A DNA stretch of 64,000 nucleotides from Orobanche coerulescens (taxonomy: Eukaryota > Streptophyta > Magnoliopsida > Lamiales > Orobanchaceae), in the NCBI GenBank assembly GCA_033398695.1, contig CM065806.1, positions 36,667,001 to 36,731,000 on the forward strand. Direction: 5' to 3'. The position numbers were made by a program, and so were the translations under genes. A model generated the notes under the pieces. That model saw only the letters and a list, made by a program, of their open reading frames with translations. It was not told the origin of the DNA and did no database searches. Of the stretch, positions 22,619 through 45,923 are shown piece by piece (positions within the stretch are counted from its first letter, which is position 1; every line of letters begins with the position of its first letter).

Positions 22619-23150
22619 TTACGTACGTTAAGCTGAGGAGCTTACGTATGTTAAATTGCAAGTGTAACGTACGTTATGTGTTATGCATTACGTACGTTAA
22701 AGTATCAGGTGAGATGCAGTCGTCTTATCAGAGGACTTTGTAAATACAAGTGTAACATACGTTAAGCATAAGAGCTTACGTACGTTAAGACCAAGCCGTA
22801 ACGTACATTATGTTGAGTATATAATGTACGTTATGAATAGAATCGGATAGGATCTGAGGTGTCGCAACTTTCGGCGCAAATGCGGGCAGGAGAAGTCAAC
22901 TTCTAGTTAACGTACATTATGAGTAGTACATTACGTACGTTAAATGGGTATAATACTGTAGCAAGTCAACTCTGTGTTACGTACGCTATGGCACAGGTGT
23001 TACGTATGTAATACAAGGTATAAAATGAGGCAGTAACTTCTGGATTGTCATTACGCATGCTATCAACGTCTGATAACGTACGTAAAGGATGTTACGTATC
23101 TTAATATGGTTTATGTAACGTACGTAATTCCTGAAAGCTTATAAATATGT
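22619..23150 (+). promoter_or_regulatory. LARD2 5' U3: sixteen TTACGTACGTTA-type near-palindromes at 23-bp period, then TATA
   Basis: Twelve-base units start at 22619, 22642, 22665, 22688, 22753, 22776, 22799, 22822, 22908, 22931, 22977, 23000, 23051, 23074, 23092 and 23116. Intervals are 23,23,23,65,23,23,23,86,23,46,23,51,23,18,24; most are exactly 23 or close to a multiple of it. The spacers differ from each other. The TATA box CTTATAAATATG follows, starting 24 bp after the last unit. The 3' LTR has the same array at 42909-43418. Confidence 0.9.
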
Positions 23151-24154
23151 GAGACTCCGTTATTTTGCTATTTTGAGGAGTTCCACCTTTATTTCTTCGT
23201 CCTTCAACCCTCCGAGGCCGATTATGGCTCTTCTAACTCGGTTATGAGCTTGGGGAGCATATATTGGAGTTGTTCTTAGAGTTGATAATGATCATTAGAA
23301 GGAGTTCGATTGTCCTTCATCGTAGTTCTTCAATATCAGGTAACATTCGTATTTCTCTGATTATAGCTCGAGTTCGGAATGATGTTTACATGCTAGGAAG
23401 CATGTTGATCTACCTTATTGTTATTATGATGTTATACATGAATAAATGGTATTGTAACAAGAGATTGAAGATATTGATTAAGGTTATTCATGTCGTAAGA
23501 GTTTCGATTCGTTCAAACATGCTCGTAAGATGGATTATCGGGTTTTGTTGTTGATATATGGGTATTGATGCGATTGTAGTGGTTTTGGATCGTGATGAAA
23601 AGATATGTTGATGTAATTCCCTTCTTCATTTCAGATTCTTGATGTTATCGTCGTTGTTTACTTCATATGATGACGATTATGGTAGTATTTTCGTGATTCT
23701 TGGTGTTATGAATAATGCATGTCGAAGAAGATGATGATATGTGTGTATTGATCGGGTTAGAAGTGAAATGTAATTAGGTTAAAGGTTAGATAACATATTG
23801 GACTATGTTGTCTTAGTAATTATGAACAAGATGATGTTAATTGGATGTGCTTGCGGAATAATTCACGTTCTTGAGGAACTCTTGAATTATGAGATTGATT
23901 TCGGAATTGAGTATGTTATAATCTTGGTTATCGGGTTGAATTGATTGTTGGTATGATTATCGGATTATGGAATCGTATTGTGGTTGTGGATTCGTGATTG
24001 ATTGATTTGGGTTGTTTGAATTTTTATTCAATCGAGATGTTGTGTAACCGTTGGGTTTGTTGATTGGTTATATCGATTGGTGATTGTTATCGAACTTGTT
24101 GTTTATCGATTATTACAATAGGTTGTGAGGATTGATCATTGATTAGAAACGTGC

Positions 24155-26384
24155 TATAATATCCGCATTTTTCTTCTTTTCGTGATATTCCCATTTTGGT
24201 GTATTTTCGGTTTTAGCGACTCGCTTGTAACCATGCCGACATTTTGAATCTATTTTATTCTTGGAGTTTCTCCATTTGGACGAGTTTCGGAGATGTTTTG
24301 ATATTATTCCGTTTTATGTCACGTATTGTTGCATGGACGTTCGATTCTCGTAGAACCCGTTCGATTTGGTAATTTCTTTGGTTGCACGAGTTCGTATGGT
24401 TGAGTTGTTCGTGTTGCAAGTTTCGTTTTATCGATCCGACATCGTATCGCGATTTTTGGATGTTTGGGCCATTATGTAATTTCCCTAAGTTACGGGGTAG
24501 TTTCTATCCTTGTCATTTCCGAACCCCCGGGTAGTCGGAATCACGTTTCATTTTAGTTCTTTAGTCACTGGCTTAAATCCGTCGGAAGTGTATCCGTTGG
24601 TCGTGGATACACCTTGTTATTCCCCGATCATTTCCTCGTCGAGAAGTGATTCAGATTTTGGCCTGCTGTCACAGGCCATGTTACGGCCGTAAGTCGTATA
24701 TGTTACGGCAGTAATACTCGAGATTTACGGCCATAAGTTTTCCTTTATACGGCCGTAACAAGAGTTCGTTTTTCTGCACTTTGGTCCAGTGAGGAGTTAC
24801 GGGTGTAACACGCTAGAGTTACGGCCGTAAGAATTGTTACGGTCGTAACCTCATTTTGATACGGCCGTATGTCGGCTTCGTCAAATTGCCGAGTTTCATT
24901 CCTGGGAATAGTTATGGCCGTAAGGCAGGAGAGTTATGGCCGTAATGTTCCTATGTTACGGCCGTAAGTTATGGATTTTACGGCCGTAACACCTGCCAGT
25001 ATATAAATTGGCAGCAGCCGTATTTTTCTCATTTTCTCACCTCTCTCACTTCTCTTCGCGACGGGAATGACTTGGAGAGCTAGGGTTCGTCTGATTTTTG
25101 CCCAAACACCATTGTAGGGGTATATTCAAGCTTTATATCATCAATCTATCACTAATCATTCATTGTTCATCGTCGAATCAAGGTAAAATTTCCTAGAACC
25201 CTATTTTGGGGAAGATTTGGGGGTTTTCACGTTTTCGTCTGATCCGTTCCGTTTTGTTGGTTAATTCATGATGAATATGATTAATCTTGTTGGTATTCTT
25301 CATTTTCCTACGAATTCATGGTATATTTCGTGGTATCTTTTGTTATCGAGAGGGTTTGGTTGTGGTCTGCCCTCGTTGTTTTCGTACGAATATACATGAA
25401 TCGTAGGCGGGTTTTCAGGTGTATTACATTTCCGTAATCATTTAGAAGTGGTTGTGATTATATTCTTCGAATCGTTAGGTTCGGTTTTGTCGGTTCCTAG
25501 CGGTCACGCTTGATTCCTTCCGTTCGAGTCGTTGTCAATTACTCAAGGCAAGTACTTTTGGAAACCTTTATGCTTAACTTGAAATGGTAATGTATATTGT
25601 GTGCACTTTACTCACCTTGGGAGGGTCCGACGGGGCCTCGAGGGAATCTATGACTTCACTCTGGATTCACGAGTTTGTTTCGCTAGCAAACTCGGGAGGG
25701 TCCTTAGAGGCCTCGGGTGGGATTTGTGGCTTTGTACCGGTCTTAGGCGATGCCTGTGCGTGATTTTTTTTATGATAAGGCCAGCTCGGGAGGGTCCTTA
25801 AAGGCCTCGAGTGGGATTTGTGGCTTTGTCCCGGTCCTAGGCAAATTGATTGACTGTTTGTTTCCAGAAAAGACATGTCTGGTTTAGGTTTTCTGAAATG
25901 AATTTGGTGCATTGTACTATGAAATGTGTAAGCGAATGGTTTGCCTTGATTACTTGTACTAGTGTAAATGCTAACCCCTCTGGGGACCCGTTTTGGGGAA
26001 ATTCTTGTTATGAATTTCAGGTTATGATCAGCCGGGCGAGTGGGCGCTGGGACAGTAAGAGGATGCTGGCCAGGGTTGTTGGCATGTGTATTTGAGTCCT
26101 TTTATTTCTGTTGTTCCATTCGATATGGTTGTTGCCTACTTTCTAAACTTATAGATTGTACTCGTGAGTACTTAAGCTTTTTCTCTTCGAATTGTGATTC
26201 ATATTCATTGGAGTTATTTAAGGTTGTCGATGTGGATTATTCCGCTGGTTGTACCACGTGTGTTATTTGATTTTCATCTGGATGATGTGTGATTTTATTG
26301 TGGTAAATTTGTGTCTAGCCTGGTGGGTTCGATGTGGGGGTCCACGGCACTGTAATATACCTTGAATACCTCGGGGGTGTTATA
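24155..26384 (+). repeat. gypsy 5' LTR
   Basis: 2,230 bp, closely matched by 31273-33459. Contains the TTACGGCCGTAA array and TATA box, CGAATCAAGGTAAAATTTCC (donor-like) at about 25175, ACTCAAGGCAAGTACTTTTG at about 25541, and the repeated phrase GGGAGGGTCC at 25619, 25685 and 25789. Ends with GGCACTGTAATATACC then GGGGGTGTTATA. Confidence 0.9.
24681..25008 (+). promoter_or_regulatory. gypsy 5' U3: twelve TTACGGCCGTAA-type palindromes at 22-bp period, then TATA
   Basis: Units start at 24681, 24703, 24725, 24747, 24797, 24819, 24837, 24859, 24912, 24934, 24956 and 24978. Intervals are 22,22,22,50,22,18,22,53,22,22,22. Several units are perfect 12-bp palindromes with a CGGCCG core; others have one C-to-T-type change. 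The TATA box TATATAAA starts at 25000, exactly 22 bp after the last unit. Confidence 0.93.
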
Positions 26385-26389
26385 GAAAA

Positions 26390-26401
26390 TGGTAACAGAG
26401 A
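26390..26401 (+). other. gypsy primer-binding site, decayed
   Basis: TGGTAACAGAGA, five bases after the LTR end; one internal base and the last base deviate from TGGTATCAGAGC. Confidence 0.8.
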
Positions 26402-26623
26402 ACTAGGTTTATGGATACCTACGCTTGTCGGTTATTTTGGGTCTAGTTGTGATTTGTTTTGCACATTGTCACACCGCTGCCAGCATCTCGGTACTTCCAG
26501 CGCTCGTAAGTTTTCCTTACTCGGTTCTTTATTTTCCCGTAATGTATTTCCATTTCTTGAATTGTGGATGTTTTTTCTCTCTTACTTGTCATCGAGTTGT
26601 TTTTGCTACCTCTTAACACCAGT

Positions 26624-28590
26624 ATGGATGCTGGAAGAGGCTGTGGTCGTGGTCGTGGTCATGGTCGTGGTCGCGGACGCGGCCGTGGACGTAGGGCAGC
26701 CGGTGGGGCATCCACGTCGCATTCTTCGGGGGCCGGCAGCACCGGTGACCGACATAGCCATGCTTCTTCTCAGGATGGCGCCGACCTGGATGTTGCGGCT
26801 GTTATGCAACAGATGGTGAACCAAATGGCGGTGATAGTCCAGTCGGTTCAGAACCCGAATCCGGCCTATGCTGCTCGGGACGGAGCTGATCGTTGGCTTC
26901 AGGATGTCATCAAGATACATCCTCCTCAGTTTACGGGAGCATCAGACCCGATTGACTGGGAAGGGTGGATCAAGGAGATATCCAAAGTCTTTGTTGCCAC
27001 CAATTGTCCCGAGGACCGTAAGGTCCCTATTGCCCAGTATTTTCTCACCGGGTACGCTACTGATTGGTGGGAGGCCGTTGGGCCTAAGGATCACGTTGCT
27101 TCGTGGGTGGAATTCAAGGACCTTATGGAGACTGAGTATTGCCCGTGGCCGGTTAGACAGGCTTGAGTCCATGCCTTCTATGATGCTCAACCGCGGGATA
27201 TTCCTGTCTCTCAAGCTATTGCTGATTTCAACAAGGAGTTGGGCTATGTGAAGACCCAAGTTGTCGAGGAGAGTGATAAAATGTTTCACTTTTCCAGATG
27301 GATGAAACTGTCAATTCAGGACTATATGTCTGGGCTCGTCTGTACTACTTTGAAGGATTATCAGAGTCGAGCTCTTGCCTATGATATGTCTGTGACGGCC
27401 AGTGCGGCGGTTCGGAAGAGTAAGAAACAGAAATCCGTCGGAAATTTCTCGGGTCACAAGGGTGGAGGTCAGCAGAAATCTCAGTCTACAAATATTACTG
27501 GGGGTGGTTCGGCTCGTTTCTCTGGGGGCTATCGAGGTACTATCAGTGCCTCCGTGCGGGATGCCAAATGCTTTAACTGTGGCATGCTGGGCCATCGGAA
27601 CCGGGAGTGTCCTCGTCTGCCTTTGACTTGTCATACTTGTGGGCAGTCGGGCCACAAAGCTTTCTTTTGTGAGTGGGTAGGACGGCTTCTTGGTGCTCAG
27701 ACTTCTTTTCCAGCACTTAAGGAGCCGAGTGTAAACCAGGGCTCGTTTGCTCCGCAGTCCCCACCGAGTGCCAGCCGGGGAAGAGGTCGGGGCCAACCCG
27801 CTAGAGAGGGAGCTTCTAGTGTTGGGTCCGCCCATCCGCGTATCTATGAGATGAGGAGGGCCGATGATCCAGCGGCTACTATGGCGACAAGTACCGTTCA
27901 TATTCATTCTCATCCTGTCAGTGTGCTTTTCGGTTCGGGTGTTACGCATTCATTCATCTCTCTGGAGTGTATACGCCATTTGAGTCTTGACTGTTTGTCG
28001 CCTTGCAAGCCTTTCATCGTTAAACTTCTTAGCGGTGATATAATTGTTGGCGATCGAGAGGTTCGAGACTGTTCTGTGTTTATTTGTGAGAGGGATTGGC
28101 TCTCTAATCTTATTATTGTGGGTATTGAGGGTGAGGATTTGATTCTCGGGGATTATTGGCTCGAGCAGCATGGTGCGATTATGAACTACCGCACGAGGAT
28201 CATCAGTATGCTAGCCGAGGATGGCACCGATCACTCTTTCGCGGGGCGAAAGAGAAACCAGAAGTTCGTAATTAATGCCTTGAAGGCGATGAGACTCCTA
28301 CGAAAGGGGTGTACTGGTTATTGGTGCTATGCCTTGAAGACGGAGAATGGTGGAGTCGAGTTTTCATCGATTCCAATTGTTAATGAGTTTCTTGATGTTT
28401 TTCCTGATGAGTTATCGGGGTTGCCGCCGGACCGTGAGGTAGAGTTTAATATCGAGTTAGAGCCGGGTGCGGCCCCGATTTCGAAGGCGCCGTATCGCAT
28501 GGCACCTTCAGAGATGGCCGAGTTGAAGAAGCAGTTGAGTGAGCTTATGGAGTCGGGGTATATTCGAGTGGTTCGCCTTGGGGCACACCG
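26624..28590 (+). pseudogene. gypsy gag and protease (broken)
   Basis: The ATG at 26624 sits just after an acceptor-like TTAACACCAG. It opens MDAGRGCGRGRGHGRGRGRG, an RG-rich head, followed by the gag core (IHPPQFTGASDPIDWEGWIK; AQYFLTGYATDWWEAV). An in-frame TGA at 27164 stands where an Arg codon is likely; the same frame then continues (HAFYDAQPRDIPVSQAIADF). Two CCHC knuckles are visible: CFNCGMLGHRNREC (27569 on) and CHTCGQSGHKAFFC (27629 on). Aspartic protease: the expected D-S-G-A-T-H-S-F is GSGVTHSF, so the catalytic Asp is Gly (codon 27932-27934) and the enzyme is dead. RT begins with FLDVFPDELSGLPPDREVEF and the frame is lost at about 28570-28590. Confidence 0.93.
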
Positions 28591-29396
28591 GTCCTGTTTG
28601 TTCGAAAGAATGATGGTTCATTGCGTTTATGTATCGACTATCGCGATATGAACAAAATGACCATCAAGGACAAGTATCTGCTGCCGAGGATTGATGACTT
28701 GTTAGATCAGTTGCAGGGAGCTGCGGTATTCTCGAAGATCGACTTGAGATCGGGGTACTATCAGCTTCGGGTGAAGGAGTCCGACGTTCCGAAAACAGCT
28801 TTTCGGACGAGATACGAACATTATGAGTTTGTGGTCATGCCCTTCGGGTTGACTAATGCGTCGGCGGCGTTCATGCAGTTGATGAACAAGGTCTTTATTG
28901 AGTATTTGGATAAGTGTGTCATCGTCTTCATTGACGATATCCTTATTTATTCTAGGAACGAAGAGGAACACGCACATATTTTCCGAGTAGTGTTAGACAT
29001 TATGAGGACCGAGCAACTCTATGCAAAGTTCTCGAAATGTGAGTTCTGGCTGAAGGAAGTGATGTTTCTAGGTCACGTGATTTCAGCCGAAGGGGTCCGT
29101 GTGGATCCGCAGAAGGTTGAGGCTGTGTTGGACTGGGCACCGCCCAAGAATGAGAAGGAGGTCCGTAGTTTCTTGGGCTTGGTTGGCTACTACCGTAGGT
29201 TCGTCGAGGGTTTCTCGAAACTAGCTCGGCCACTTACACAGTTGCTCCAGAAGTCCGAGAAGTTCGTTTGGAATGACGAGAGGCAGTCGAGTTTTGAGGA
29301 GCTGAAGAGGCGTTTGACTTCAGCCCCGATATTGGCTTTGCCATGTGGCAACGAGGGTTTTGTTGTTTATAGCGATGCTTTGGGTCAGGACAGTTG
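28591..29396 (+). pseudogene. gypsy reverse transcriptase and start of RNase H
   Basis: After a frameshift the RT reads [20 protein letters not shown], then [51 protein letters not shown] (FIDD box 28927-28938) and [20 protein letters not shown], all intact motifs, with catalytic Asp residues in KIDL and FIDD present. The connection domain follows ([20 protein letters not shown]). RNase H begins at [11 protein letters not shown] and is cut by a TGA plus a deletion of roughly ten codons. By itself the RT core looks well preserved. Confidence 0.94.
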
Positions 29397-30350
29397 AAGA
29401 CTATTGCATTTTCGTCGAGACAGTTGAGGCCGTATGAGCTTAACTACCCTACTCATGATTTGGAGTTAGCGGCAGTTGTTTTTGCGCTCAAGATTTGGCG
29501 TCACTATCTTTTTGGCTCTGCATGTCAGATTTTTACCGATCATAAAAGTCTAAAGTACATATTTACTCAGCGGGAGTTGAATATGAGGCAGAGGAGGTGG
29601 TTAGAGTTGAATAAGGATTATAATCTCGAAATCCTTTATCACCCGGGCAAGGCGAACATCGTGGCCGACGCCTTGAGTCGGAAACCGGTTGCGTTGCGGA
29701 TGCTTGAGATCCTCACGCCTCAATCTGAGCTTCAGCGGGAATTGATTGAGTTGAGTGTTGAGATTTTGTTGTCTGGGGCTATCGGGCAACTTTGCGCTTT
29801 AGAGATTTCGTCGTCTCTGATCGATAGAATTAAACTGAAGCAGTTGGAGGATCCGATGATCACTCAAATCCGAGAGAATGTTCTTAAAGGAAAATCTCAT
29901 GGGTTTGTGATTCACGAAGATGGGGTATTGAGATTCCAGAGTCGTTTGTGTGTGCCGAACGATTCGAAATTGAGGCAGAGTATTTTGTGTGAGGCCCATG
30001 CTACGCCTTACTCCATTTATCCTGGATCGAGTAAGATGTACAAGTACCTGAGTAGGAATTTCTGGTGGAATGATATGAAGGAGGAGGTCGCACAGTTTGT
30101 ACCAAGATGTTTGACTAGTCAACAGGTCAAAATCGAGCATGAGCGACTGACTGGTTTATTGCAGTCGTTTCCCGTTCCGGAATGGAAATGGGACTATATT
30201 TCGATGGACTTCATCACGAGTTTGCCGAGGTCGAGGTCGGGCATGAACATGGTTTGGGTGATTGTTGATCGTCTGACCAAGTCGGCACACTTTCTGGGCA
30301 TCAAGGATACTTGGAGTCCAGAGAGGTTGGCTCGTGTGTTTATTTCGTAG
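29394..30350 (+). pseudogene. gypsy RNase H and integrase N-terminal half
   Basis: RNase H continues with [20 protein letters not shown] and [18 protein letters not shown] (Glu and Asp of the active site present), then [14 protein letters not shown]. The integrase HHCC zinc site is damaged: the second His is Tyr (SIYPGS, codon 30018-30020) and one Cys is Ser (CLTSQQ, codon 30117-30119). The catalytic region starts [23 protein letters not shown] at 30348, where Gln (CAG) is usual, ends the frame. Confidence 0.93.
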
Positions 30351-31189
30351 ATTGTGAGGCTTCACGGTACTCCGAAGTCTATTGTTTCGGATCGTGACGG
30401 TCGTTTTGTATCGCACTTTTTGGCAGGCGGTGCCTAAGGCATTGGGTACTTAGTTGCGACTAAGCACTTCTTTTCATCCTCAGTCGGACGGGCAGTCGGA
30501 GCGCACTATCCAGACATTTGAGGATATGTTTCGCGCTTGTGCTCTCGATTGGAGCAGTAACTAGGAGGAGCACTTCCATTGATTGAATTTACGTACAACA
30601 ATAGTTGGCACGCGTCGATTTGTATGGCACCATATGAGGCGCTTTATGGGCTTCGCCGATTTGTTGGAACGAGGCATCCTATTTGGTCGAGACCGAACCG
30701 GATATCATTTTAGAGACGAGATGGAAAGTGGAATTGATTCGGGAGAGGATGTTGACTGCTCAGAGCCGACAAAAGTCATATGCCGACGTCCATCGTCGAC
30801 CTTTGGAGTTCGAGGTAGGAGGCCATGTTTTGCTAAAGGTGTCGCCGACGCAGGGAGTTTTCCATTTCGGGAAGAAGGGGAAGTTGAGCCCGAGGTTTAT
30901 TGGGCCCTTTGAGATTCTCGAGAGAGTCGGTGAGTTGGCATACCGGTTAGCGTTAGCTCCGGCTTTGAGCCGTGTTCATAGCATTTTCCATGTTTCCCAA
31001 CTGAGGAAATATGTCCCGGATCCTAGTCACGTCATCGATTATGGTGAGATTGATATTGCCGAGGATATTACTTTCGAGGAGCGTCCCTTGAAGATTTTGG
31101 AGCACCGTGAGAAACGACTAAGGCATAAAACTATTCCCTTGGTCAAGGTGCAGTGGTCGAGGCATGGTGTCGAGGAGGCAACTTGGTAA
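30351..31189 (+). pseudogene. gypsy integrase C-terminal half with chromodomain-like tail
   Basis: Pieces in several frames: LHGTPKSIVSDRDGRFVSHF directly after the stop; an extra T near 30417 shifts the frame; TSFHPQSDGQSERTIQTFED contains the catalytic Glu region; further stops at 30451, 30562 and 30579. The last frame (to 31189) has ADVHRRPLEFEVGGHVLLKV and KGKLSPRFIGPFEILERVGE, the GPF/Y module, followed by SRVHSIFHVSQLRKYVPDPS and a degenerate chromodomain-like end (LVKVQWSRHGVEEATW). In this clade the tail is thought to guide integration to heterochromatin. Confidence 0.9.
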
Positions 31190-31254
31190 ACCGAGGATAG
31201 CATGCGTGCTAAGTACCCCGAGTTGTTTGTTTCTTAAGTTTCGGGACGAAACTT

Positions 31255-31272
31255 ATTTTTAGAGGGGTATAA
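31255..31272 (+). other. gypsy polypurine tract
   Basis: TTTTTAGAGGGGTATAA immediately before the 3' LTR, preceded by the family hallmark TTTCGGGACGAAACTTA. Confidence 0.75.
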
Positions 31273-33459
31273 TGTAATATCCGCATTTTTCTTCTTTTCC
31301 CGATATTCCCATTTTGGTGTATTTTCGTTTTTAGCGACTCGCTTGTAACCATGTCGACATTTTGAATCTATTTTATTCTTGGAGTTTCTCCATTTGGACG
31401 AGTTTCAGAGATGTTATGATATTATTCCATTTTATGTCACATATTTTTGCATGGACGTTCGATTCTCGTAGAACCCATTCGATTTGGTAATTTCTTTGGT
31501 TGCACGAGTTCGTATGGTTGAGTTGTTCGTGTTGCGAGTTTCGATTTGTTGATCCGACATCGTATCGCGATTTTTGGACGTTTGGGCCATTTTGTAATTT
31601 CCCTAAGTTACGGGGTAGTTTCTATCCTTGTCATTTCCAAATCCCCGGGTAGTCGGAATCACGTTTCATTTTAGTTCTTTAGCCGCTGCCGTAGGAAGTG
31701 TATCCGTTGGTCGTGGATACGCCTTGTTATTTCCCGATCATTTCCTCGTCGAGAAGTGATTCAGATTTTGGCATGTTGTCACAGGCCATGTTATGGCCGT
31801 AATACTCGAGAGTTACGACCGTAAGTTTTCCTTTATACTGCCGTAACAAGAGTTCGTTTTTCTGCACTTTGGTCCAGTGATGAGTTACGGGCGTAACACG
31901 CTAGAGTTACGGCCGTAAGAATTGTTACGGCCGTAACCTCATTTTGATACGGCCGTATGTCGGCTTAATCAAATTGCCCAGTTTCATTCATGGGAATAGT
32001 TATGGCCGTAAGGTAGGAGAGTTACGGCCGTAATGTTCCTATGTTACGTCCGTAAGTTATGGATGTTACGGCTATAACACCTGCCAGTATATAAACTGGC
32101 AGCAGCCGTATTTTTCTCATTTTCTCACCTCTCTCACTTCTCTTCATGACCGGAACGACTTGGAGAGCTAGGGTTCGTCCGATTTTCGCCCAAACATCAT
32201 TGTAGGAGTATATTCAAGCTTCATATCATCAATCTATCACTAATCATTCATTGTTCATCGTCGAATCAAGGTAAAATTTCCTAGAACCCTATTTTGGGGA
32301 AGATTTGGGGGTTTTCACGTTTTCGTCCGATCCGTTCCGTTTTGTTGGTTAATTCATGATGAATATGATTAATCTTGTTGGTATTCTTCGTTTTCCTACG
32401 GATTCATGGTATATTTCGTGGTATCTTTTGTTATCGAGAGGGTTTGGTTGTGGTCCGCCCTCGTTGTTGTTTTCGTACGAATATACATGAATCGTAGGTG
32501 GATTTTCGGGTGTATTCCATTTCCATAATCGTTTAGAAGTGGTTGTGATTGTATTCTTCGAATCGTTAGGTTCGATTTCGTCGGTTCCTAGCGGTCATGC
32601 TTGATTCCTTCCATTCGAGTCGTCGTCAATTACTCAAGGCAAGTACTTTTGGAAACCTTTATGCTTAACATGAAATGGTAATGTATATTGTGAGTGCTTT
32701 ACTCACCTTGGGAGGGTCCGACGGGGCCTCGAGGGAATCTATGACTTCACTCTTCACGAGTTTGTTTCGCTAGCCAGCCCGGGAGGGTCCTTAGAAGCCT
32801 CGGGTGGGATTCGTAGCTTCGTCCCGGTCCTAGGCGATGCATGTGCGTGATTTGTTTTATGATAAGTCCAGCTCGGTAGGGTCCTTATAAGCCTCGAGTG
32901 GGATTTGTGGCTTTGTCCCGGTCCTAGGCAAATTGATTGACTGTTTGTTTCCGGAAAAGACATGTCTGGTTTTAGTTTTCTGAAATAAATTTGGTGCATT
33001 GTACTATGAAATGTGTAAGCGAATGGTTTTCCTTGATTACTTGTACTAGCGTAAATGTTAACCCCTCTGGGGACCCGTTTTGGGGAAATTCTTGTAATGA
33101 ATTTCAGGTTATGATCACCAAGGCGGCTTTGAGACGAGACGAGGATCTTGGCGCTGTCGTTGACATGTACATTTGAGTCCTTTTATTTCCGTTGTTCCCT
33201 TCGATATGGTTGTTGCCTACTTTCTAAACTTATAGATTGTACTCGTGAGTACTTAGGCTTTTTCTCTTCGAATTGTGATTCGTACTCATTGGAGTTATTT
33301 ATGGTTGTCGGTGTGGATTATTCCTCCGGTTGTACCGGGCATGTTATTTGATTTTCATCTGGATGATATGTTATTTTACTATGGTAAATTCGTGTCTAGC
33401 CCGGTGGGTCTGATGTGGGGGTCCACGGCACTGTAATATACCTTGAATATCTCTGCGGC
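31273..33459 (+). repeat. gypsy 3' LTR with U3 array 31791-32095
   Basis: Starts TGTAATATCCGCATTTTTC. Array units start at 31791, 31813, 31835, 31885, 31907, 31925, 31947, 32000, 32022, 32044 and 32066 (intervals 22,22,50,22,18,22,53,22,22,22); TATATAAA starts at 32088, again 22 bp after the last unit. Compared with the 5' LTR exactly one 22-bp unit is missing at the left end of the array. The right terminus is eroded. Confidence 0.9.
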
Positions 33460-34194
33460 CGTGTTCGAGGATGTTCGTTGTAACACCCCCAAAACCATAT
33501 GGGAATATTACACGCCGTAAACCCTTTCCGCAAGGATCTACCAGGCTAAACGTCCATAAACAACCAAATGCTTGCCCGGCCAGGGTCAAACAATATAATA
33601 ATACAGACCGTTAAGGTCACTTACACAAAAACACACAGACCGATGAGGTCACACAACTCTATCAACAGGACTGACTAACAACATTACCCACACATGGTTC
33701 GAAATACAATACAACAGAAGACTGAATCAACTCTAACAATACAAATAAACTCTACCAACTCTCAACTCTTGATTAGTATCGCAGCTCGTCATCCCCTTGT
33801 GCCAATCCTGTGTTGCTCCCCGAACTGCATGTACCAGGCCTTGAGCAGAGACATCCACCCCGAATACTCGGGGTTAGTAAAACTCCACTGTTTTACTAGT
33901 GCAAGTATCAAACCATACGAAATGTAACAAGCAAATAGCAACTACAAATTTAATACGTAAATCAATTATCAAAATGTTCAGAAGTTTTAGAATTTCGAAC
34001 TCAAGTAAGAGATATTTGAAAAGGAACACATCATCTCGGGATTTTTAAAGCGTAAATTCTTTTGGACCTCGAGTCCCAATTTACAAAACCTTTTCGTAAA
34101 CATTAGGGCCTTAGCCCGGTTCTCGTTTCAAAGCATACTAAATAATATATCATTATGAGTCCGAGATCCATATTTAAAATGTTACCCGAACAAT

Positions 34195-34590
34195 CATCTA
34201 CACGATCATTGTTCGTACACATCATGTACCGAACTCCGGAGGCCTCGACGGACCTTACCCGACCACACACACTGTTCGTACACATCATGTACCGAACTCC
34301 GAGGCCTCAACGGACCCTACCCGGCCACACACCTGCTCGTACACATCATGTACCGAACTCCGAGGCCTCAACGGACCCTACCCGGCCACAACATCGTTCG
34401 TACACATCATGTACCGAACTCCGCAGGCCTCATCGGACCCTACTGGATCACACACCTTGTCCGTACACGCGTCATGTACCGGACTCCGCAGGCCTCGTCG
34501 GACCTACCCGGATCACACACTTTGTTCGTACACATCATGTACCGAACTCCGCAGGCCTCGCTGGACCTACCCGGAACACACACACATCGA
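34195..34590 (-). repeat. Tandem repeat in solo LTR1 (CATGTACCGAACTCC units)
   Basis: Six units spaced about 60-75 bp, each containing GTACACATCATGTACCGAA, a GAGGCCTC- or CAGGCCTC-like phrase and CGGACC-TACCCGG. Homologous units occur at 40680-40890 in solo LTR2 with GGCCACGACGGA instead. On the LTR strand this lies in the transcribed part downstream of the promoter. Frames running through it are repeat artefacts. Confidence 0.8.
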
Positions 34591-35549
34591 CACGACACAA
34601 TTCATAATCATTAAATGTCAAGCCATTCCACATTACACGAAATGTACAATCAAGTATGTAAACCAAAACAACACAAATATCATGATCATCACAACGACTC
34701 TTAACCAACATAACACACATTCGGTACACAATACATTGAACAACCACGTGTACAACCATCTCATATGTACATCGCAATCCCGCACAAATGGCACGACGCC
34801 TAACACGGATACCAATATATCACTATTATCACAAAGCCTTCAAATTTCGGAAAACACAACCAACTCAAACGGAACATATTTACGGAGGCAAGCAAAATCG
34901 TCATACATATCATACGTAATTACTAGTCACAAGATACAAGTCGTATAATAAGATACTTGCCTTAATAACCGCTACCAAACGTTAGAAGAACACGGTTCGA
35001 CCGAAGCTCGGACCGAAGAAGACAACGAACGGAAGGGTTCCACTCGAGTTCTTCACAAGAATTTCGTCCCTAAGTCATACCAATGATAAATCAACAATCG
35101 TACGATGGATAATAATCATACAACGCCCAATCCCCCCTCTAAGACCTTTTGTCGGACACCTTCAAGGCGTTGACTAAGAACTCGACCAAAATAACGAATC
35201 GAAACGATCCAACCATGGAATAACAAGGGAAATGATAGAATACATCTAAATAATCATCAATACATCACAAATCTAAGTTATTACGGTTAAATCGGACAAA
35301 ACGAACAAAAACCCCAAATTCACCCAAAAGTAGGGTTTCAAGAATTTACCTTGGATTAATGATGAAGAACAATTGTTGGAGTTGTTAATCCACACCAAAA
35401 ACTTGAAGAATATGAAGTTCTCTGGGATTGATGATGCAAAACACCCAAAAATCGCCCATAAGATCGCCCAAGAGGAGGAGGAATGAAGGAAGAGATGAAA
35501 TGAGCATTCATCTCACAAAATCCATGAGAAAATAGGCTAATCGGGTGTG

Positions 35550-35600
35550 TGCCGCGGCCCGGCCTAAGTGTGCCGCGGCACGAGTACAGTGCCGCTCGCC
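35550..35600 (-). promoter_or_regulatory. Solo LTR1 U3 motif TGCCGCGGCA, three copies
   Basis: TGCCGCGG starts at 35550 and 35571 (the latter the palindrome TGCCGCGGCA) and TGCCGCTCG at 35590, intervals 21 and 19 bp. Same relative place in the LTR as the arrays of other families, but few copies and no clear TATA box. Confidence 0.45.
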
Positions 35601-38600
35601 AAAACTGGAAAATGAGTATCTGAGCTATTTCGACCATAACTCTCTCGTCCGGACTCCGATTGACTCACCGTTTGAACCATTGGAAAGCTAACTTGATGCT
35701 CTATAATATTGAAAAGATTCAAAGTATTTGGAGTTTTAAAGAATTTATGGTGATTTTACAAGGTCGACTCATATTTGGGAAAAGTCGTTTAATAACACTG
35801 AACTCAAGAAAACGACACCGAAACCCGAACCTGAATACGAATCGAAGATACGGTCACGAAGTACTCGCAAAGACGAATCTTAGGGCTAAGAGAACACACA
35901 ATTCAGACCACCCGAAGGCTCGGAATTCAACAACGGAAGTAATTACCCAAAACTTTGGGAAATTACGAAAATGGCCCAACACGTCCGAAAATCACGATAC
36001 GCGATCGAAACACCAAACCAAAGCTCACAACACGACTAACAAAGTTAAACGGACTTACGGGAAACTCGAAACAGTAATTTCGGACGAGATTCACAAGAAT
36101 CGAACTCGAGTGCGGAAAAGTTGTTAAGAAACACGGAACTCAACAAAACAATACCGAAAAGAACTCGGATGACAAAAAGTGCAGAATTAATCATTCTCAG
36201 AATGATGATACGGTCCCAAGCGAGTCGTCGAAACGGACCTCCGCCGAAAAAATAAAATTACCAGAAATCCGAAATTGCGGATATTACATTCGTAAATTGC
36301 ATTGGTCAGGGCCGAGGAGCTCGTAGACGAAGGCAATGGGATTGGTAACGGCTTCATCATCGTCGTGTCGGTATCGAGGCAAGTTATTACTTGCTCAGTT
36401 TACAATATTTGATGAATGGTTTCAGTTTCATTCGTTTTTAATTCTTATAGCAATGATATAATTATGAACTCTGGAGACTTGGAATTGTATGTTATTTTTT
36501 CATTTTGGGAATTAAATCCTAATGTATATGATTTACACTTGTTATTGGTATACTTGAGTATCGAGGATACATTATGGTAAAGACGAGGATATGAGTTATC
36601 TATAGTCCTTGGTATTTTGAATCGTCGAACATTGAGGATAATTGTTGGTGATGGTTTTGACATCGAGGTTGCTCTCGAAGGACTCGGGGCAAGTCCTCAA
36701 ATCATTTTTGTCATTTAGTGTCGATCATGTTGTAATACATTTGTGTATTGTTGTTGTCGTGCATTTGTGTATTGTTGTTAACATGCATTTGTGCATTATT
36801 GTCGTATGTCCACCTTGTGTTGGTCCGACGGGATCATCTTGGGTATCTATAGCTATGTGCACTGGATCGCTGGACAGGTACTTCCACCATGTGTTGGTCT
36901 GACGGGATCATCATGGGAATATATGATGCGTGCGCTGAATCGTTGGATTACCATGTGTTGTTGTGCATATGTATATTGTTGGTCATCCACCGCGTGTTGA
37001 TCTAATGGGATCATCGTGGGAATCTATGTTGTGTGCGCTGTATCGTTGGATTACCATAAGTATACATTGTTGTTATCGTGGTGAGCATATTGATGTTGTC
37101 ATATGAGTATGCATTTGTAGGTCTCATGTTAGGACCATGTCCGTACGTTGTATTGATCTGATCTCGGATTAGACTAACGTGATTCGTTGTGGCATTGCAT
37201 ATCTTGAGGTATGTTATGTATTTCCTTCTTGGTTCTTGTCTTTGAATGGACAATTGATTATTGTGTTGATGTTTGATGATGTTATCCGATGGATTGAGTT
37301 GGTCAGAGTTGATACATTTATGTCTTGGTAAGTTATGATGATGTTTTGAGAATCTCGAGTATTGTTTGAGGTACAGTATAGATGTTGTGTATGAGTTCAT
37401 TGTTTAGTGGAGATTACGAGATGTGGAATATGGTAAGGATTATTTTGATGAGGATTATTACGAGCTGGTAATGTTATGACGATAATATTACATTGGTCGT
37501 ATTCTTATTTTGTAATTTCATTGGTATGATATTATTGATGTGATGTGACCGTTATCATTGTTGAGTATTATGGCTGACCCCATCGTGGGATTTATTTTTA
37601 GGTTCTTTTTTCGGATATCGAGCTTGTATCAGTCGTGAAGTGATTAGCTTCCCGGAGGATACTGGCTATGGCGTGTGTTTGTGAATCGAGTACTCTGTCT
37701 AGTTGTTATTTTCTGCTGCAAAAGAGTATTTTGGTTCTTTGTTATATCCGTTGCGAATGTGTTTTAAAATGGGTTGCTAGGATTTGCGAATCTGGGTTCA
37801 TTTTGGAAAATCGTTTTCTAAACTATTTTGTCAGTATGTGTAACGATGGCTTAACGTATACTTTTAGATTGATGAGTTTTGGCATTATGGCCTTGTACTT
37901 TCAAATGAGATTTTTCGACGGTACTGATAAATGGATTTTATAAAGTCTTTGAATATTTATAAAAGATATTACCGTCATCGCCGCTTAGGTGTATTTGAAA
38001 TGTTTGTAAAAATATCTTTTAGCCTTATGGGTTCCGTTTCGAGGCCCACGGCACTGTAATATTCTCGGATGGCTCTGGGGGTGTTACAGAATATGGTATC
38101 AGAGCTTAGGTTGTAGAAACCAAGGCTATCGGGTCGAGTCGAGTCGTGTTTTTATCACATAGTCGGTTGGCAAGTGTTAGAGACCTGGGTTTTTGTTGTT
38201 TACTCGGGCTTGTGTGTTATGTGGTTTACCAGTGTGGTACTGTGGTTGTTTTAAACTTTTCCAAATGGTATTAACGTGCTTCTTCAGAAAGAGATGTGTT
38301 GTGTTCTCGAGTTGAATTGATTTTGCAAAATGTATGTTTTGAGAATATCTGTATCGAGTATTTCCTAGAGTTGAGACATGTGCCAGTATCACGGGGAATC
38401 GTCGGCTTCACGATCTGTAAGTATTTAGATTTTTGAATTGTATTGAGGTTATTTGCGGTTATAAGTTGATATGCTTTGAGATCCAAAAGAATATTATGTG
38501 TTACATTATGAAGGAGCAGAATATGATAGTTGGAACAAAACCGATGATCTTGAGAAACTGTGATTATAGAAAATCAATATGTCGGGTAAACTTGGGAAAT

Positions 38601-39889
38601 GGAGTTGTATATTTGGGAGATATATTGTGGATTGTTGAGAGGAACATGTAGTCATGCTAGTTCATTTTGAGAAATATGAAACTGTTTTTTAACATTTGAA
38701 ATGATACTTTTCAACATGACGTATTTTGAATGAACGATTTCGCTCGCTGTCATGAAAATGTATTTTCTTAAACTTATTTTGAGAGACAGTATTGTTGTCT
38801 AAAAAAAACATGTTTCATCATGGCATAGTTGAGGTGTTGCAGAATGGAATAATGGTCAATAAAGCAATTCATATGTGGGAAATGTGATTTTAAGAAAGTC
38901 TCTATAATATGATTTTGGATTCTATCGTGTGATGTTCCGACCTAATGTCAGTGGAATTGGTGACGAGCCGAATTGGTATACAGGAGTATGAATGTGGTCA
39001 ATCATTTGCATATTTTCATTCTATTTAATCATGACTATTCGAAAAGAATTGTTATCGAGAACTTGACATGAGCGAGCCGGTTTAACTTTTCGAAAATTGA
39101 TTTTGTGGTCTTATAAAAATATGTGTTTTGAGTTTTGAAAGTATGGAAAGAACTTTCGAAATTTTTTTTTTGTTGACGATATAATATGATTTCAAAGACG
39201 TTTTGAAAACGTAATTGGTATGCGTACAAACGCAGTACATAATGCATATCATGGTGAAGTTCTGAGTGAGACTCACAAACTGGATAACACATCAATGGTA
39301 CGATGAAAAGAGATTCGAACTTCAGTATGGTAGTTTGGTTATCCAGGGATGACTGGTTGGTTGATCAGATAAGAGAAATATGTCGCGTGTTATGTTCGTC
39401 GGTTTGCGACTGGTTGTTCATACGCCGAAAGGTATGTTCAAAAGTCGGTGTGTTTCTTTGAGACCCACTGTATGCGATTTGTGTAACGTTTTGAGAATTT
39501 TATTCTTTCGTATATCTGTCTCTGTGGTTCTGTGCTAATAGTGTTGGAGCTTACCATGTGAAGGTATTCTTAGTTATTGTTGATCCTTCGTTGGTAATAT
39601 TGAAGTTTATCATGATAATGATATTCTCGGTTAATTCATTGATTGATCATTGTTATTGATCGTATGAGCGTTCGGACTTTGTGTCAACGTTTTGGGATTT
39701 GTTGCCATTGTTTTGGGCAATTGTTCCATGGATGTATCGTGTATTATTGGTTTTTATCAGGATTGGGACTTGATTGTGCGATCAGGCAGACAGGCTTTGA
39801 CACAGATGAATTATTCCATAATCGAGCCATAATGATGTATTTTGTTGAAATTCGTGAAGTTGCGATTGTAAGCGTATTGAGGCTTTGAA

Positions 39890-42415
39890 TGTAACACCTC
39901 CAAAAACATATGGGAATATTACACGCCGTAGATCCCTCCCACGAGGATCTATCAGGCTAAGCATCACAAAACAACCAAGTGTTTGCCCGGTCGGGGACAA
40001 ACGATACAATAATAGAGACCGTTAAGGTCAATTATAAACAGTTGCACTGATTGATAAGGCTGCACGACTGACACAAATAGACAAATACAATTCCTTACAA
40101 TAAATATCCACGTCGGGTAAAGATATAAAATAACGGAAGGTGGATTACAACTCTATCGATACAACATAACTCGACCAAACTCTCAACTCCTGATTAGTAT
40201 CGTAGCTCATCACTTCCTGCGCCGCTCCTGTGACTGCTCCTACGAACATTCATGTACATGAACGTAATACAGACATACACCTCCCGATTACTCAGGGGTT
40301 AGCAAAATTCCACTATTTTGCTAGTGCAAGTATAATACTATACGAAATATAACAAGCAAATAGCAACCACGAATCAAAATACGACAATCAGTTATTAAAA
40401 ACATTCCCGAGAGGTTTTAGAATTTCGGATTCAAGCAAATAAGTGTTTGTAAATAAACTCCTCATCTCGGGGATTTTGAAAGTAGAAATCTTTTTGGACC
40501 TTGAGTCCCAAATTACAAAACCTTTTTCGAAATCGTTAGAGCCTCAGCCCAGTTCTTGTTTCAAAACATATTAGCTAGGATATCATCACGGGTCCAAAGC
40601 CCAACATCAACATTATCCAGTCAATAATTGTTCTTACTCGTCAAGTAACAAATCCCGGAGGCCACGACGGACCGTACCCGGTTCCACACAATCCCTGTTC
40701 GTACAGATCATGTACCAAACTCCAGAGGCCACGACGGATCCTACCCGGAACACACATACTGTTCGTACACATCATGTACCGAACTTCAGAGGCCACGATG
40801 GACCCTACCCGGAACACACACTGTTCGTACACATCATGTACCGAACTCCAGAGGCCACGATGGACCCTGCCCGGAACACACACTGTCACTTCACAACACA
40901 TATTGATCAACTCAACACATTACCACAAACAACACACATTATTACCAATATGTCAAACCATTCAACAATACACCGCAATACATATTCAAGTATGTAATCA
41001 ATCCGGCACAATTATCATAATCATCATGATAACTCAATCATGAACAATCACGCACAACACAAACAATATGATTAACACAACCAACCCAATTCCACAACGT
41101 TAAACAAGTAAGGATATCATCACTACCATCAAGCGTTCACAATAATCAATTCATAATCAATTCACATGAAGCATATCCACGAAGTAAACCAAATCATCGC
41201 AAACCCAACACGAAGTCTCTATTCACAAGACACAAATCTTATAGCAAGATACTTGCCTCACTAACCGCTACCGAACACTCCGACGAACACGGTTCAATCG
41301 GGAAATCTCGAACACCTGCAATCCTCCGGCAAAAACAACGAAACACGATTACAACGAGTATAAAAACTGGAAACAACACGAAACACGCCCAAGAATCAAA
41401 GTAAAACCCGTTGAGTCATTTAATCGGACATTAAATGCTCAAGGCTCCCTTAGAACACAAAAATCACGGTTGGACTCCAATGAATTCGAGATACGGATAT
41501 ACAATCCGTAGAACACGGTTAATAATACTCAATAACATCAATCGGTTCATCAAAATCGAACGAACAACAACATAAAGAAGGAAATCCCGAAAGTCAACCC
41601 TAGGATATTTCAAGAATTACCTTCGATCCGGACGAATGAAGTGGAAGATGATGATAGATATGAATCAAGCTTCCCAAAATGATGCACGACGATACCTCCG
41701 ATAACCACCCTTGAATCATAGCCGAAAATCATGGAAGAAGAAGGGGAAAGGGGAAAAATGGCAATGAAACCCGTCGCCCAACCTTATATAGCCGGACACA
41801 TTACGACCGTAACCTATAGGGCCTTACGGCCATAACTCGTCACTTACGTCCGTACTCGGAACCTATTTACGTCCGTAACTAGGCCTCCCGGGCCACTGCC
41901 CAAAACGTGCGGGTACATTACGACCGTAACCCAACAATGCATTACGGCCATGCACGGACACTCCTTACGGCCGTAACCATGTTCCGCAGGGCAGTAACAT
42001 GTGCGGATGCCTTACGGCCATACCCGGAAATGCATTACGACCGTACCAGGACATGTCTTATGGTCGTAACTCGACCGTGCCTTACGGCCGTAACTCGGCC
42101 AGGCCTTACGGTCATAACTCGACCATTCTGACAGTCCGATCAGACATTCGACAACGCCTCGGTCACACTAATGCACCATCTATGATTCAAAACAACAACG
42201 AGCATATTATGAAACATAACGTACCACACCAAAAGCACACCTTTAATTAAAGAAGCGCACGCGACAACCAGTTTCACTCGACGAACATGACAACAAAATA
42301 CATCTTACCGTACATAACAGAAAACGAAAACCAATAATCATAACGAAACAAAATAACCGGCACAAAATGATCAAATAGTTCAAGGCAACCGAAAATAAAA
42401 ATCTCGGGTATTACA
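39890..42415 (-). mobile_element. Solo LTR of a second gypsy family, reverse orientation (solo LTR2)
   Basis: 2,526 bp between the perfect duplication TTGAA (39885-39889 and 42416-42420). On the minus strand it starts TGTAATACCCGAGATTTTT and ends GTGTAATATTCCC then GGAGGTGTTACA. It shares its 3' third and the CATGTACCGAAC tandem units with solo LTR1, but the 5' end and U3 differ. Contains GAGGCAAGTATCTTG on the minus strand at about 41250. Confidence 0.92.
41784..42117 (-). promoter_or_regulatory. Solo LTR2 U3: twelve TTACGGCCGTAA-type units at 23-bp period, then TATA
   Basis: Plus-strand unit starts: 41801, 41824, 41844, 41867, 41918, 41942, 41965, 42012, 42035, 42058, 42082 and 42106. Intervals are 23,20,23,51,24,23,47,23,23,24,24. 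The TATA box (minus strand TATATAAGG) starts at 41790, 22 bp beyond the edge of the last unit (41812). The word is the same as in the gypsy LTR at 24681, although the 5' ends and spacer sequences of the two LTRs are not alike. Confidence 0.9.
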
Positions 42416-42603
42416 TTGAAGTTGGGTCATTGCTAGTGTCGAGGAGATCATCGACTTCACGCATTAGTAAGTATAATGTTTTTGTTATTCGTTAATAATG
42501 ATGATTGATCTGTTTCGTGATGATTCTGGAGATTGTGGTTGAACTCTTGGTTGTGACCGGATTGCGAGTTTCGAGGACGAAACTTATTTTACGTGGGGTA
42601 GTA

Positions 42604-45600
42604 TGTATCCTAAATTTCTACTATGGTTGTTTAAAGTTATTTTATCCGAGTTATATTGTACAGTGTGGAATCTGTACAGTATGGATAAAATAATTGAAGG
42701 ACTGAGACAGTTGTATTTGTATAATTTTCGTACTTGGTCGACAATTGCATTTGAGGATATCGTGTATCAGGTTGTTTATTTTGATATCGGGTATATCAAG
42801 TGAGAATGTTATTGGGACGAGTATATGTATTCAGTATGTCATATATACGTATTTGGTATGTTGAGACGACAAGCAGGAGCAGCTATTTTTGGCTGAGTGC
42901 AGAAGCCATTACGTACGTTAAGTCGAGGAGCTTACGTATGTTAAATTGGTAAGTATAACGTACGTTATGTGTTATGCATTACGTACGTTAAAGTATCAGG
43001 TGAGATGCAGTCGTCTGATCAGAGGACTTTGTAAATACAAGTGTAACGTACGTTAAGCATAGGAGATTACATACGTTAAGACCAAGCCGTAACGTACATT
43101 ACATTGAGTATATAACGTACATTATGAAGAGAATCGGACAGGATCTGAGGTGTCGCAACTTTCAGCGCAGATGCGGACAGGAGAAGTCAACTCCTAGATA
43201 ACGTACATTATGAGTGGTACATTGCGTATGTTAAATAGGTATAATACTATAGCAAGTCAACTCTGTGTTACGTACGCTATGGCACAGATGTTACGTACGT
43301 CATACAAGGTATAAAATGAGGCAGTAACTTCTGGATTGTCATTACGCATGCTACCGATGTCTAATAACGTACGTAAATGATGTTACGCACGTTAAGATGG
43401 TTTATGTAACGTACGTAATGCCCTAAAGCTTATATATGTAAGACTCCGTCATTTTTCTATTTTGAGGAGTTCCACCTTGTTTCTTTGTCCTTCAACCATC
43501 CGAGGCCGATTGTGGCTCTTCTAACTCGGTTATGAGCTTGGGGAGCATAGAATGGAGTTGTTCTTAGAGTTGATAATGATCATTGGAAGGAGTTCGATTG
43601 TTCTTCATCGTAGTTCTTCAATACCAGGTAACATTCGTATTTCTCTTATTATAGCTCGAGTTTAGAATGATGTTTACATGCTAGGAAGCATGTTGATCTA
43701 CCTTATAATTATTATGATGTTATACATGAATAAATGGTATTGTGACAAGAGATTGAAAATATTGATTAAGGTTATTCATGTCATAAGAGTTGCGATTCGT
43801 TCAAACATGCTCGTAAGATGGATTATTGGGTTTTTTGGTTGATATATGTGTATTGATGCGATTGTAGTGGTTTTGGATTGTGATGAAAATATATATTGAT
43901 GTAATTCCCTTCTTCATTTCGGATTCTTGATATTATTATCGTTGTTTACTTCGTACGATGACGATTAAGGTAGTATTGCCGTAATTCTTGGTGTTATGAA
44001 TAATGCATGTCGAAGAAGATGATGATATGTGTGTATTGATCAGGTTAGGAGTGAAATGTAATTAGGTTAAAGGTTAGATAACAGATTGGACTATGTTGTC
44101 TTAGTAATTATGAACAAGGTGATGTTAATTGGATGTGCTTACGGAATAATTCACGTTCTTGAGGAACTCTTGAATGGTATATGAGATTGATTTCGGAATT
44201 GAGTATGTTATAATCTTGGTTATCGGGTTGAATTGATTGTTGGTATGATTATCGGACTATGGAATCGTATTGTGGTTGTGGATTCGTGATTGATTGATTT
44301 GGGTTGTTTGGATTTAATCGAGATGTTGTGGTTATATCGATTGTTAATTGTTATCGAACTTGTTGTTTATCGATTATTAAAATAGGTTGTGAGGATTGAT
44401 CATTGATTAGGACCGTGCTTTTCGGTCGTGGAGGATATAAGTTATCTATAGTACGTGGTATTTTGAAACGTCGAACATTGAGGATAATTGCCGGTGATGG
44501 TTTTGAAATCGAGGTTGCTCTCGAAGGACTCGGGGCAAGTCCTCTAATCATTTTTGTCATTTAATGTTGATCATGTTGTAATACATTTGTGTATTGTTGT
44601 TGTCCTGCATTTTTGTATTGTTGTTAATATGCATTTGTGCATTGTTGTCATATGTCCACCTCGTGTTGGTCCGACGGGATCATCTTGGGTATCTATAGTT
44701 GTGTGCGCTGGATCGCTGGACAGGTACTTCCACCATGTGTTGGTCCGATGGGATCATCATGGGAATCTATGATGTGTGCGCTGGATCGTTGGATTACCAT
44801 GTGTTGTTGTTGTGCATATGTATATTATTGGTCATCCACCGCGTGTTGATATAATGGGATCATCGTGGGAATCTATGTTGTGTGCATAAGTATACATTGT
44901 TGATATTGTGGTGAGCATATTGACGTTTTTTCATATGAGTATGCATTTGTAGGTCTCGTGTTAGTACCATGTTCGTACGTTGTATTGATCTGAACTCGGA
45001 TTAGACAGACGTGATTCGTTGTGGCATGCGTATCTTGAGGTATGTTCTGTATTTCCTTCTTGGTTCTTGTCTTTGAATGGACAATCGATTATCGTGTGAT
45101 GGTTAATGATGTTATCCGACAGATTGAGTTGGTCAGAGTTGGTACATTTCTGTCTTGGTAAGTTATGATGATGTTTTGAGAATCTTGAGTATTGTTTGAG
45201 GTACAGTATAGATGTTGTGTATGAGTTCATTGTTTAATGGAGATTACGAGATGTGGAATATGGTAAGGATTATTTTGATGAGGATTATCACGAGTTGGTA
45301 AAGTTATGACGATAAGATTACATTGGTCGTATACTTATTTTGTAATTTCATTGGTATGTAATTATTGATGTGATGTGACCGTTATTATTGTTGAGTATTA
45401 TGGCTGACCCCATTGTGGGATTTATTTGTAGGTTTTTTTTTGGATATCGAGCTTGTATCAATCGTGAAGAGATGAGCTTCCCGGAGGATACTGGCTATGT
45501 CATGTGTTCGTGAATCGAGTACTCCGTCTAGTTGTTATTTTCCGCTGCAAAAGAGTATTTTAGTTATTTGTTATATCCGCTGCGAATGTTTTTTAAAATG

Positions 45601-45918: not shown

Positions 45919-45923
45919 GTTTT

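Follow-up and report, generated by a model that had tools for sequence, protein, structure and literature searches.

Why do different long terminal repeats (LTRs) carry different CpG-containing palindromes, each repeated at nearly the same interval? The question is raised by a 64,000-nucleotide stretch of the Orobanche coerulescens genome (GenBank assembly GCA_033398695.1, contig CM065806.1; C6:36,667,001-36,731,000, hereafter the window), which belongs to a 3.65-Gb sequence in 1,279 contigs. Nested LTR retrotransposons fill much of the window, and six of their LTR copies contain 12-bp CpG palindromes, namely TTACGGCCGTAA, TWACGTACGTWA or GTGCCGCGGCAC. We propose, from sequence comparison, that the arrays formed by these words probably serve related Ty3/gypsy LTR retrotransposons as regulatory modules near the promoter, and that the palindromes in them would dock dimeric DNA-binding proteins.

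Palindrome arrays in the window and across the genome

The palindromes were grouped into word classes (W1, T[TA]ACGTACGT[TA]A, for example TWACGTACGTWA; W2, TTACGGCCGTAA; W4, GTGCCGCGGCAC; W5, TAGCGYRCGCTA), and their arrays were located by script. Three of the four classes, W1, W2 and W5, have TWRCGNNCGYWA in common. The arrays of elements A and B and of the solo LTR C2 occupy LTR positions 302-833 of LTRs that are 2181-3349 bp long, and the TTACGGCCGTAA and TWACGTACGTWA arrays adjoin a TATA box. No TATA motif match was found within solo LTR C1, which carries W4, or beside the W5 array in the interior of element D. Near-palindromic CpG 12-mers recurring at 19-26 bp form 23 pairs in the window, compared to none in any of 20 dinucleotide shuffles.

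Two further observations concern the words themselves. In the 5′ LTR of element D, the half-sites GCACGA and TCGTGC are repeated at LTR positions 264-552, upstream of TATATAAA, with one more elsewhere in the LTR. Across the D-family LTRs (4598-5170 and 11960-12325), these GC-rich half-sites upstream of TATATAAA are partly arranged as inverted pairs and may represent one more word class, whose palindrome would be longer. Three loci (L057, L003 and L001) have arrays with both W1 and W5 units and hybrid words such as TAGCGTACGTTA, which suggests that the W1 and W5 words form a continuum.

An earlier note on this DNA placed the arrays in the U3 (unique 3′) region of the LTRs. This placement is supported, and the arrays are real and recur genome-wide, as seen from the shuffles and from genome-wide counts, which cover the W1 and W2 words. 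TTACGGCCGTAA occurs 184,551 times, against 83 for its reversed control, and TTACGTACGTTA occurs 121,648 times in forward and 121,110 times in reverse orientation (controls, 7,444 and 7,184). At a spacing of 22-24 bp there are 40,421 exact pairs of W2 and 138,147 of TWACGTACGTWA, each with a control of 0. In a first preset sample, consisting of 20 evenly spaced 10-kb loci on contigs C1-C5, the four word classes make up 90 of the 97 recurring near-palindrome pairs, and the most frequent spacing in the 13-60 bp range is 23 bp (29 pairs). Judged from this sample, the genome-wide period distribution, whose breadth would have spoken against the earlier proposal, has so far not proved broad. The same sample contains 27 arrays of at least four units in 14 of its 20 loci (W5 10, W4 9, W1 6, W2 2), and a second preset sample (10 loci of 3 kb, contigs C6-C15) contains 4 such arrays, in 4 of its loci. 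Reversed words gave 90 single matches and 0 arrays in the 230 kb of these samples. Where exact W2 words were listed over 2.3 Mb, neighbours are spaced by 19-20 bp (5) and 22-23 bp (15), with none at 24-29 bp, and a search of viral contigs for spaced W2 words gave 0 matches.

A selection of chance cases was considered as an explanation and rejected, given 0 pairs in the 20 shuffles and 0 reversed-word arrays in 230 kb.

The comparisons that follow draw on 75 arrays, of which 6 are from the window, 27 from the first preset sample and 42 from targeted loci; the LTRs of C1 and D are excluded from these counts. As L040 lies inside L058, one locus is present twice, leaving two duplicate arrays and 73 distinct ones. 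The 40 targeted loci were hand-picked from the first listed word places on one contig, and not at random; three of them (L021, L037 and L038) gave no array. The array loci are kin by descent, with LTR pairs and near-identical copies included, and the p-values are descriptive.

Unit positions, the TATA box and diverging spacers

Upstream of the last unit of their array, W1 and W2 units tend to sit at distances of about 23, 42, 65, 117 and 140 bp. This plan was examined in the 28 of the 75 arrays that could be oriented by a TATA match at 18-26 bp on one side, the other 47 being left out. W1 unit distances from the last unit are mostly 23-24, 41-42, 64-65, 115-117, 138-141 and 184-185 bp, and those of W2 include 23, 43, 65-66, 118, 140-141, 182 and 205 bp. 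The agreement of W1 units with positions defined on W1 (44 of 47) is circular. W2 units provide a separate comparison: 36 of the 67 in the 30-212 bp range lie within 2 bp of the W1-defined positions, a fit of 0.54 versus a mean of 0.32 for shuffles of the gap order, and 0.54 was never reached in 2000 trials. Among the five testable W5 arrays, that of L057 matches the W1 plan and the four others differ. Steps of 18-21 and 50-53 bp recur alongside those of 22-24 bp, and a weak GGGCAG-like motif is found at the 17th-22nd base of the 50-53-bp gap in W1 and W2 arrays (20 rows, 19 of them distinct and one of them W5).

These distances modify the picture of family-specific words under a single 22-24-bp period. 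Element A and C2 share a word, the steps of 18-21 and 50-53 bp occur as well, and W4 arrays elsewhere have mostly 21- and 50-bp steps. Nor is it supported that the families converged on a period rather than on a sequence. Because W1, W2 and W5 share TWRCGNNCGYWA, and W1 and W2 also tend to share unit positions and have a spacer motif in common, inheritance is the simpler explanation for these three classes.

Where a TATA box is found near the array, it too has a usual position. TATA-like starts past the outermost unit start were counted in 5-bp bins at both ends of 66 W1, W2 and W5 arrays (two of which are one locus), with overlapping matches each counted; 38 fall at 20-24 bp, the next two bins have 13 and 12, and all other bins to 170 bp have 0-8 each. 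A match at 16-30 bp at one end but not the other is present in 30 of the 73 distinct arrays (W1 12/31, W2 13/20, W5 5/13, W4 0/9), and in 26 of those 30 the TATA box starts 22-26 bp past the start of the last unit. The units are also partially phased with the DNA helix. In a scan of 9-14 bp, the best-fitting periods are 10.9 bp for W1, 10.7 bp for W2, 11.0 bp for W5 and 10.4 bp for W4, all above a jitter null, for arrays that are related and not independent. Cooperative binding on one face of the DNA, one of the causes offered earlier, gains modest support from these periods, tempered by W1 and W5 values near zero at exactly 10.5 bp.

Identity between the units of one array is 0.86-0.89 in the words and 0.30-0.42 in the spacers, compared to 0.27-0.30 for shuffled spacers; the column frequencies of the words are biased, because units were picked within two mismatches of the words. 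Values between arrays were also obtained (44 of the 75, ungapped figures for words and spacers). Pairs with the same word are 0.87-0.90 identical in words and 0.29-0.47 in spacers, and pairs with different words 0.67-0.70 and 0.22-0.26, respectively. The flank identities of these pairs were not used, as they comprise aligned columns only, have a floor above 0.6 in every pair and do not separate degrees of relatedness. Five pairs of position-matched W1 arrays have words 0.83 and spacers 0.26 identical. Whole units differ by three bases or fewer in 11 of 540 unit pairs (duplicate locus removed). With such divergence, many units could not be matched by a single small RNA of 22-24 nt, and the earlier idea of one small interfering RNA directed at many units is not supported. 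Differences between paired LTRs that fall inside words are CpG transitions in 6 of 10 cases for element A and 7 of 11 for element B, compared to 41 of 117 and 42 of 173 outside the arrays, which is consistent with methylated, decaying copies.

Candidate functions and turnover of the promoter block

The dyad symmetry of the words, their usual distance from the TATA box, their retention among diverging spacers and their partial helical phasing are consistent with the docking of dimers in a promoter. A sequence-specific DNA-binding protein would dock as a dimer on each 12-bp palindrome, and several dimers at set positions before the TATA box could, judging from position and spacing, form the activator platform of the element. 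The spacing plan would be inherited, and the different words may be read by different proteins of one family or reflect a changed specificity. The promoter block would turn over and its words change with it, whether the entire block is replaced (template switching between co-packaged RNAs is one conceivable route) or its sequence diverges locally at a very high rate.

Comparisons between LTRs suggest that a promoter block of ∼480 bp gets replaced. C1 (W4) and L046 (W1) are 0.75-0.88 identical over LTR positions 1-480, 0.30-0.63 over 481-960 and 0.77-0.98 over 961-1351; the shuffled control of this profile is uninformative, as free end gaps left almost nothing aligned. Eleven W2 loci (L022, L023, L026-L031, L034-L036) match C1 within LTR positions 1-478 at 81-90%, and in the eight that were checked closer the match stops 46-61 bp short of the array. 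Two W1 loci, L049 and L050, match the W2-bearing element A at 84-85% downstream of the TATA box. A tentative extension, which we consider possible rather than probable, is that an inherited layout of dimer sites before the TATA box accepts interchangeable palindromic words, each with its own factor, and that the factor is changed by cassette swaps between LTR backbones. If so, families would escape repression or enter a new expression niche with their architecture kept.

Several observations weigh against a promoter module of this kind, or against the exchange of its words. Significance is overstated in the shuffle tests, the array loci being related by descent. The fit of W5 units to the W1 positions is weak (8 of 23, p = 0.08), and the W4 arrays depart from the plan both in their steps and in having no TATA match at 16-30 bp in any of nine. 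A one-sided TATA match at this distance is missing from 43 of the 73 arrays overall, and 8 W1 arrays have the TATA box at 53 bp instead. Spacers are not always random, since five pairs of position-matched W2 arrays have spacers 0.67 identical with words at 0.94. C1 and L004, which both carry W4, drop to 0.52-0.70 over LTR positions 361-900 between flanks of 0.72-0.93. The block thus turns over even without a change of word, which argues against a word-linked cassette exchange and makes fast local divergence of the block a live alternative. Finally, one block in two different backbones was not found, in a words-masked comparison of 44 of the 75 arrays that is weak.

The self-complementary words could instead act at the RNA level. 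The U3 RNA with which the genomic RNA ends at its 3′ side would fold into hairpins that feed small-RNA silencing or that help the element in RNA dimerisation, with the spacing setting the loops. Six array segments fold more stably than their dinucleotide shuffles (z of -2.5 to -10.9), compared to z of -1.5 to +1.1 in four control segments, two of the array segments being without a control of their own. The palindrome-rich LTR region of maize Sireviruses is described as a small-RNA hotspot (available text of PMC5311732 and PMC10760457), and by analogy a role for hairpin-derived small RNAs may apply here. Such folding is, however, a by-product of any palindrome array. The centre of the W5 word is mostly asymmetric (CA in 77 and TG in 31 of 148 units), so that pairing is imperfect between two CA or two TG units and complete between a CA and a TG unit. 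As the usual TATA distance and the spacer motif favor a promoter function at the DNA level, we consider the RNA-level role unlikely. Short words that are repeated in the promoter region and differ between related LTRs would also fit anti-silencing sites like those of the VANDAL-VANC system, where a trans factor, element-encoded or other, binds the words and keeps the promoter unmethylated while the words diversify. VANC proteins are reported to bind motifs within tandem repeats (available text of PMC12844716), and a sunflower Tekay group to encode an additional protein for which a nuclear signal is predicted (available text of PMC11728184). This reading seems quite improbable here, however, as the five open reading frame (ORF) pieces of element A contain gag-pol domains only (Pfam), no ORF of at least 150 aa is listed for the interior of element B (38090-39889), and the word differences in LTR pairs are mostly CpG transitions, as in once-methylated copies.

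Neutral tandem duplication, in which decayed repeats without function retain the period of their duplication, would account for the calls by Tandem Repeats Finder of 23-24-bp units in parts of the C2 array, for the variable unit number between arrays and for the alike spacers of some W2 arrays. It is difficult to reconcile with the kept words and mostly unrelated spacers between units of one array, or with W1 arrays that repeat the same unit positions despite unrelated spacers, and we regard this already disfavored explanation as highly improbable. Docking of dimers before the TATA box remains our preferred interpretation.

Host elements and relation to known repeat systems

The target duplications of C1, C2 and D, each 5 bp long, and the LTR pairs of A, B and D identify the carriers of the arrays as LTRs (Table 1). 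The 5′ LTR of element B, starting at ∼22310, is split by element A (24157-33453) and solo LTR C1, and the interior of B holds the insertion of solo LTR C2. Pfam domains in element A comprise gag (scored under the curated cut-off), zinc knuckle, protease, reverse transcriptase, RNase H, the integrase zinc domain and SH3_Tf2-1. An integrase following the reverse transcriptase is the domain order of Ty3/gypsy elements. Since the integrase of element A follows protease, reverse transcriptase and RNase H, element A is a Ty3/gypsy element, the one array-bearing element whose coding part was classed. No chromodomain is among the Pfam matches of the five ORF pieces of element A. The lineage may be Tekay (chromovirus), a guess from the long LTRs. 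Among the 120 best reverse transcriptase matches listed, from 7,994 scored candidates, the highest-ranking ones with a name belong to Tanacetum, at 55-72% identity.

Other repeats are present in the window. The downstream LTR halves of C1 and C2 contain tandem repeats of 62-63 bp with GTACACATCATGTAC (34207-34584, 6 copies, and 40629-40882, 4 copies, respectively). Another element, whose LTR pair (13999-15241 and 17374-18616) is 98% alike, has two copies of the CpG-free palindrome GTATTTAAATAC per LTR, spaced by 24 bp (14332-14367 and 17707-17742).

Table 1. Elements, LTRs and word arrays in the window.
Feature	Position	Strand	Remarks
Element B 5′ LTR, 5′ part	22310..24155	+	92% match to 42606-44419; GTTTT flanks both outer B ends
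Element B 5′ LTR, 3′ part	36585..38089	+	91% match to 44431-45919
Element B 3′ LTR	42606..45918	+	
Element A 5′ LTR (Ty3/gypsy)	24157..26380	+	92% match to 31275-33453
Element A 3′ LTR	31275..33453	+	
Element A interrupted gag-pol frames	26564..31189	+	Pfam on five ORF pieces
Solo LTR C1	33479..36288	-	target duplication TTCGT
Solo LTR C2	39890..42415	-	target duplication TTGAA
Element D 5′ LTR	4598..7402	+	LTR pair, target duplication GTGGA
W1 array TWACGTACGTWA, B 5′ LTR	22619..23127	+	15 units, mostly 23-bp steps; TATA match 24 bp past last unit start
W1 array, B 3′ LTR	42909..43418	+	15 units, mostly 23-bp steps
W2 array TTACGGCCGTAA, A 5′ LTR	24681..24989	+	12 units, mostly 22-bp steps; TATA match 22 bp past last unit start
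W2 array, A 3′ LTR	31791..32077	+	11 units, mostly 22-bp steps
W2 array, C2	41801..42117	-	11 units, short steps 20-24; TATA match 22 bp past last unit start
W4 word GTGCCGCGGCAC, C1	35549..35600	-	one exact, one 1-mismatch and one 4-mismatch unit; steps 19, 21
W5 word TAGCGYRCGCTA, interior of D	9649..9728	+	four units, steps 22, 24, 22

The earlier note knew of no established name for such a system, but a published equivalent exists in Ty1/copia elements, the repeated-motif (RM) boxes of Sireviruses (Bousios et al. 2010; available text of PMC2829016). These are described as palindromic, CpG-rich, family-specific words in many U3 copies upstream of the TATA box, kept while their flanks diverge and marked by a CGG-CCG core signature, which the Sirevirus Tnd-1 is without. 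The definition given there asks for eight or more copies of a palindromic motif per element, most of them in the upper LTR half, and the boxes are termed Sirevirus-specific relative to the other Ty1/copia elements compared. The arrays of A, B and C2 agree with that description in copy number and position (11-15 units at LTR 302-833) and in lying shortly upstream of the TATA box (22-24 bp), whereas C1 has at most three units and W4 arrays were without a TATA match at 16-30 bp (0/9). W2 has the core as CGGCCG, in contrast to the W1, W4 and W5 words, and element A is a Ty3/gypsy element rather than a Ty1/copia Sirevirus. The arrays of element A would thus work like RM boxes without being members of that group. 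The spacing plan relative to the TATA box and the different words in similar backbones are seen here and do not appear in the available text of the RM-box account (PMC2829016).

Parts of the arrangement have other precedents, each described here from the available text of its source. The maize Sirevirus LTR region is palindrome-rich, rapidly evolving and hairpin-forming (2016, Genome Res; via PMC5311732 and PMC10760457); its palindromes could form hairpins as do those described here, with small RNAs mapped there and sequence alone considered here. Repeat arrays, sometimes palindromic, are reportedly common in regulatory regions of transposable elements (PMC10760457). Related elements of the Tnt1 superfamily differ mainly in U3, which has been interpreted as modular evolution and sets a precedent for modular U3 change, although 'palindrom' is nowhere to be found in that text (PMC1838419). 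VANDAL-VANC likewise involves short non-coding words that diversify between families (PMC12844716), but in DNA transposons and with a known element-encoded binder, of which none was found among the five ORF pieces of element A. In Retand elements, tandem arrays lie between pol and the 3′ LTR and putative DNA-binding proteins are described, and nothing on U3 palindromes was found for them in that source (PMC11963269). We found no report of palindrome arrays in Ty3/gypsy elements in our searches of the open-licence literature, and the exact array words gave no match with a relevant title in paper texts.

What appears to be new here is that RM-like arrays occur among Ty3/gypsy elements, clearly so in element A at least, and that they share a spacing plan while their words differ. 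Plant retrotransposons would then have arrived more than once at arrays of dimer sites as promoters. The named words and distances provide a handle for identifying the binding proteins, and LTRs with a similar backbone and a different word constitute a natural experiment on whether the choice of word sets expression or silencing.

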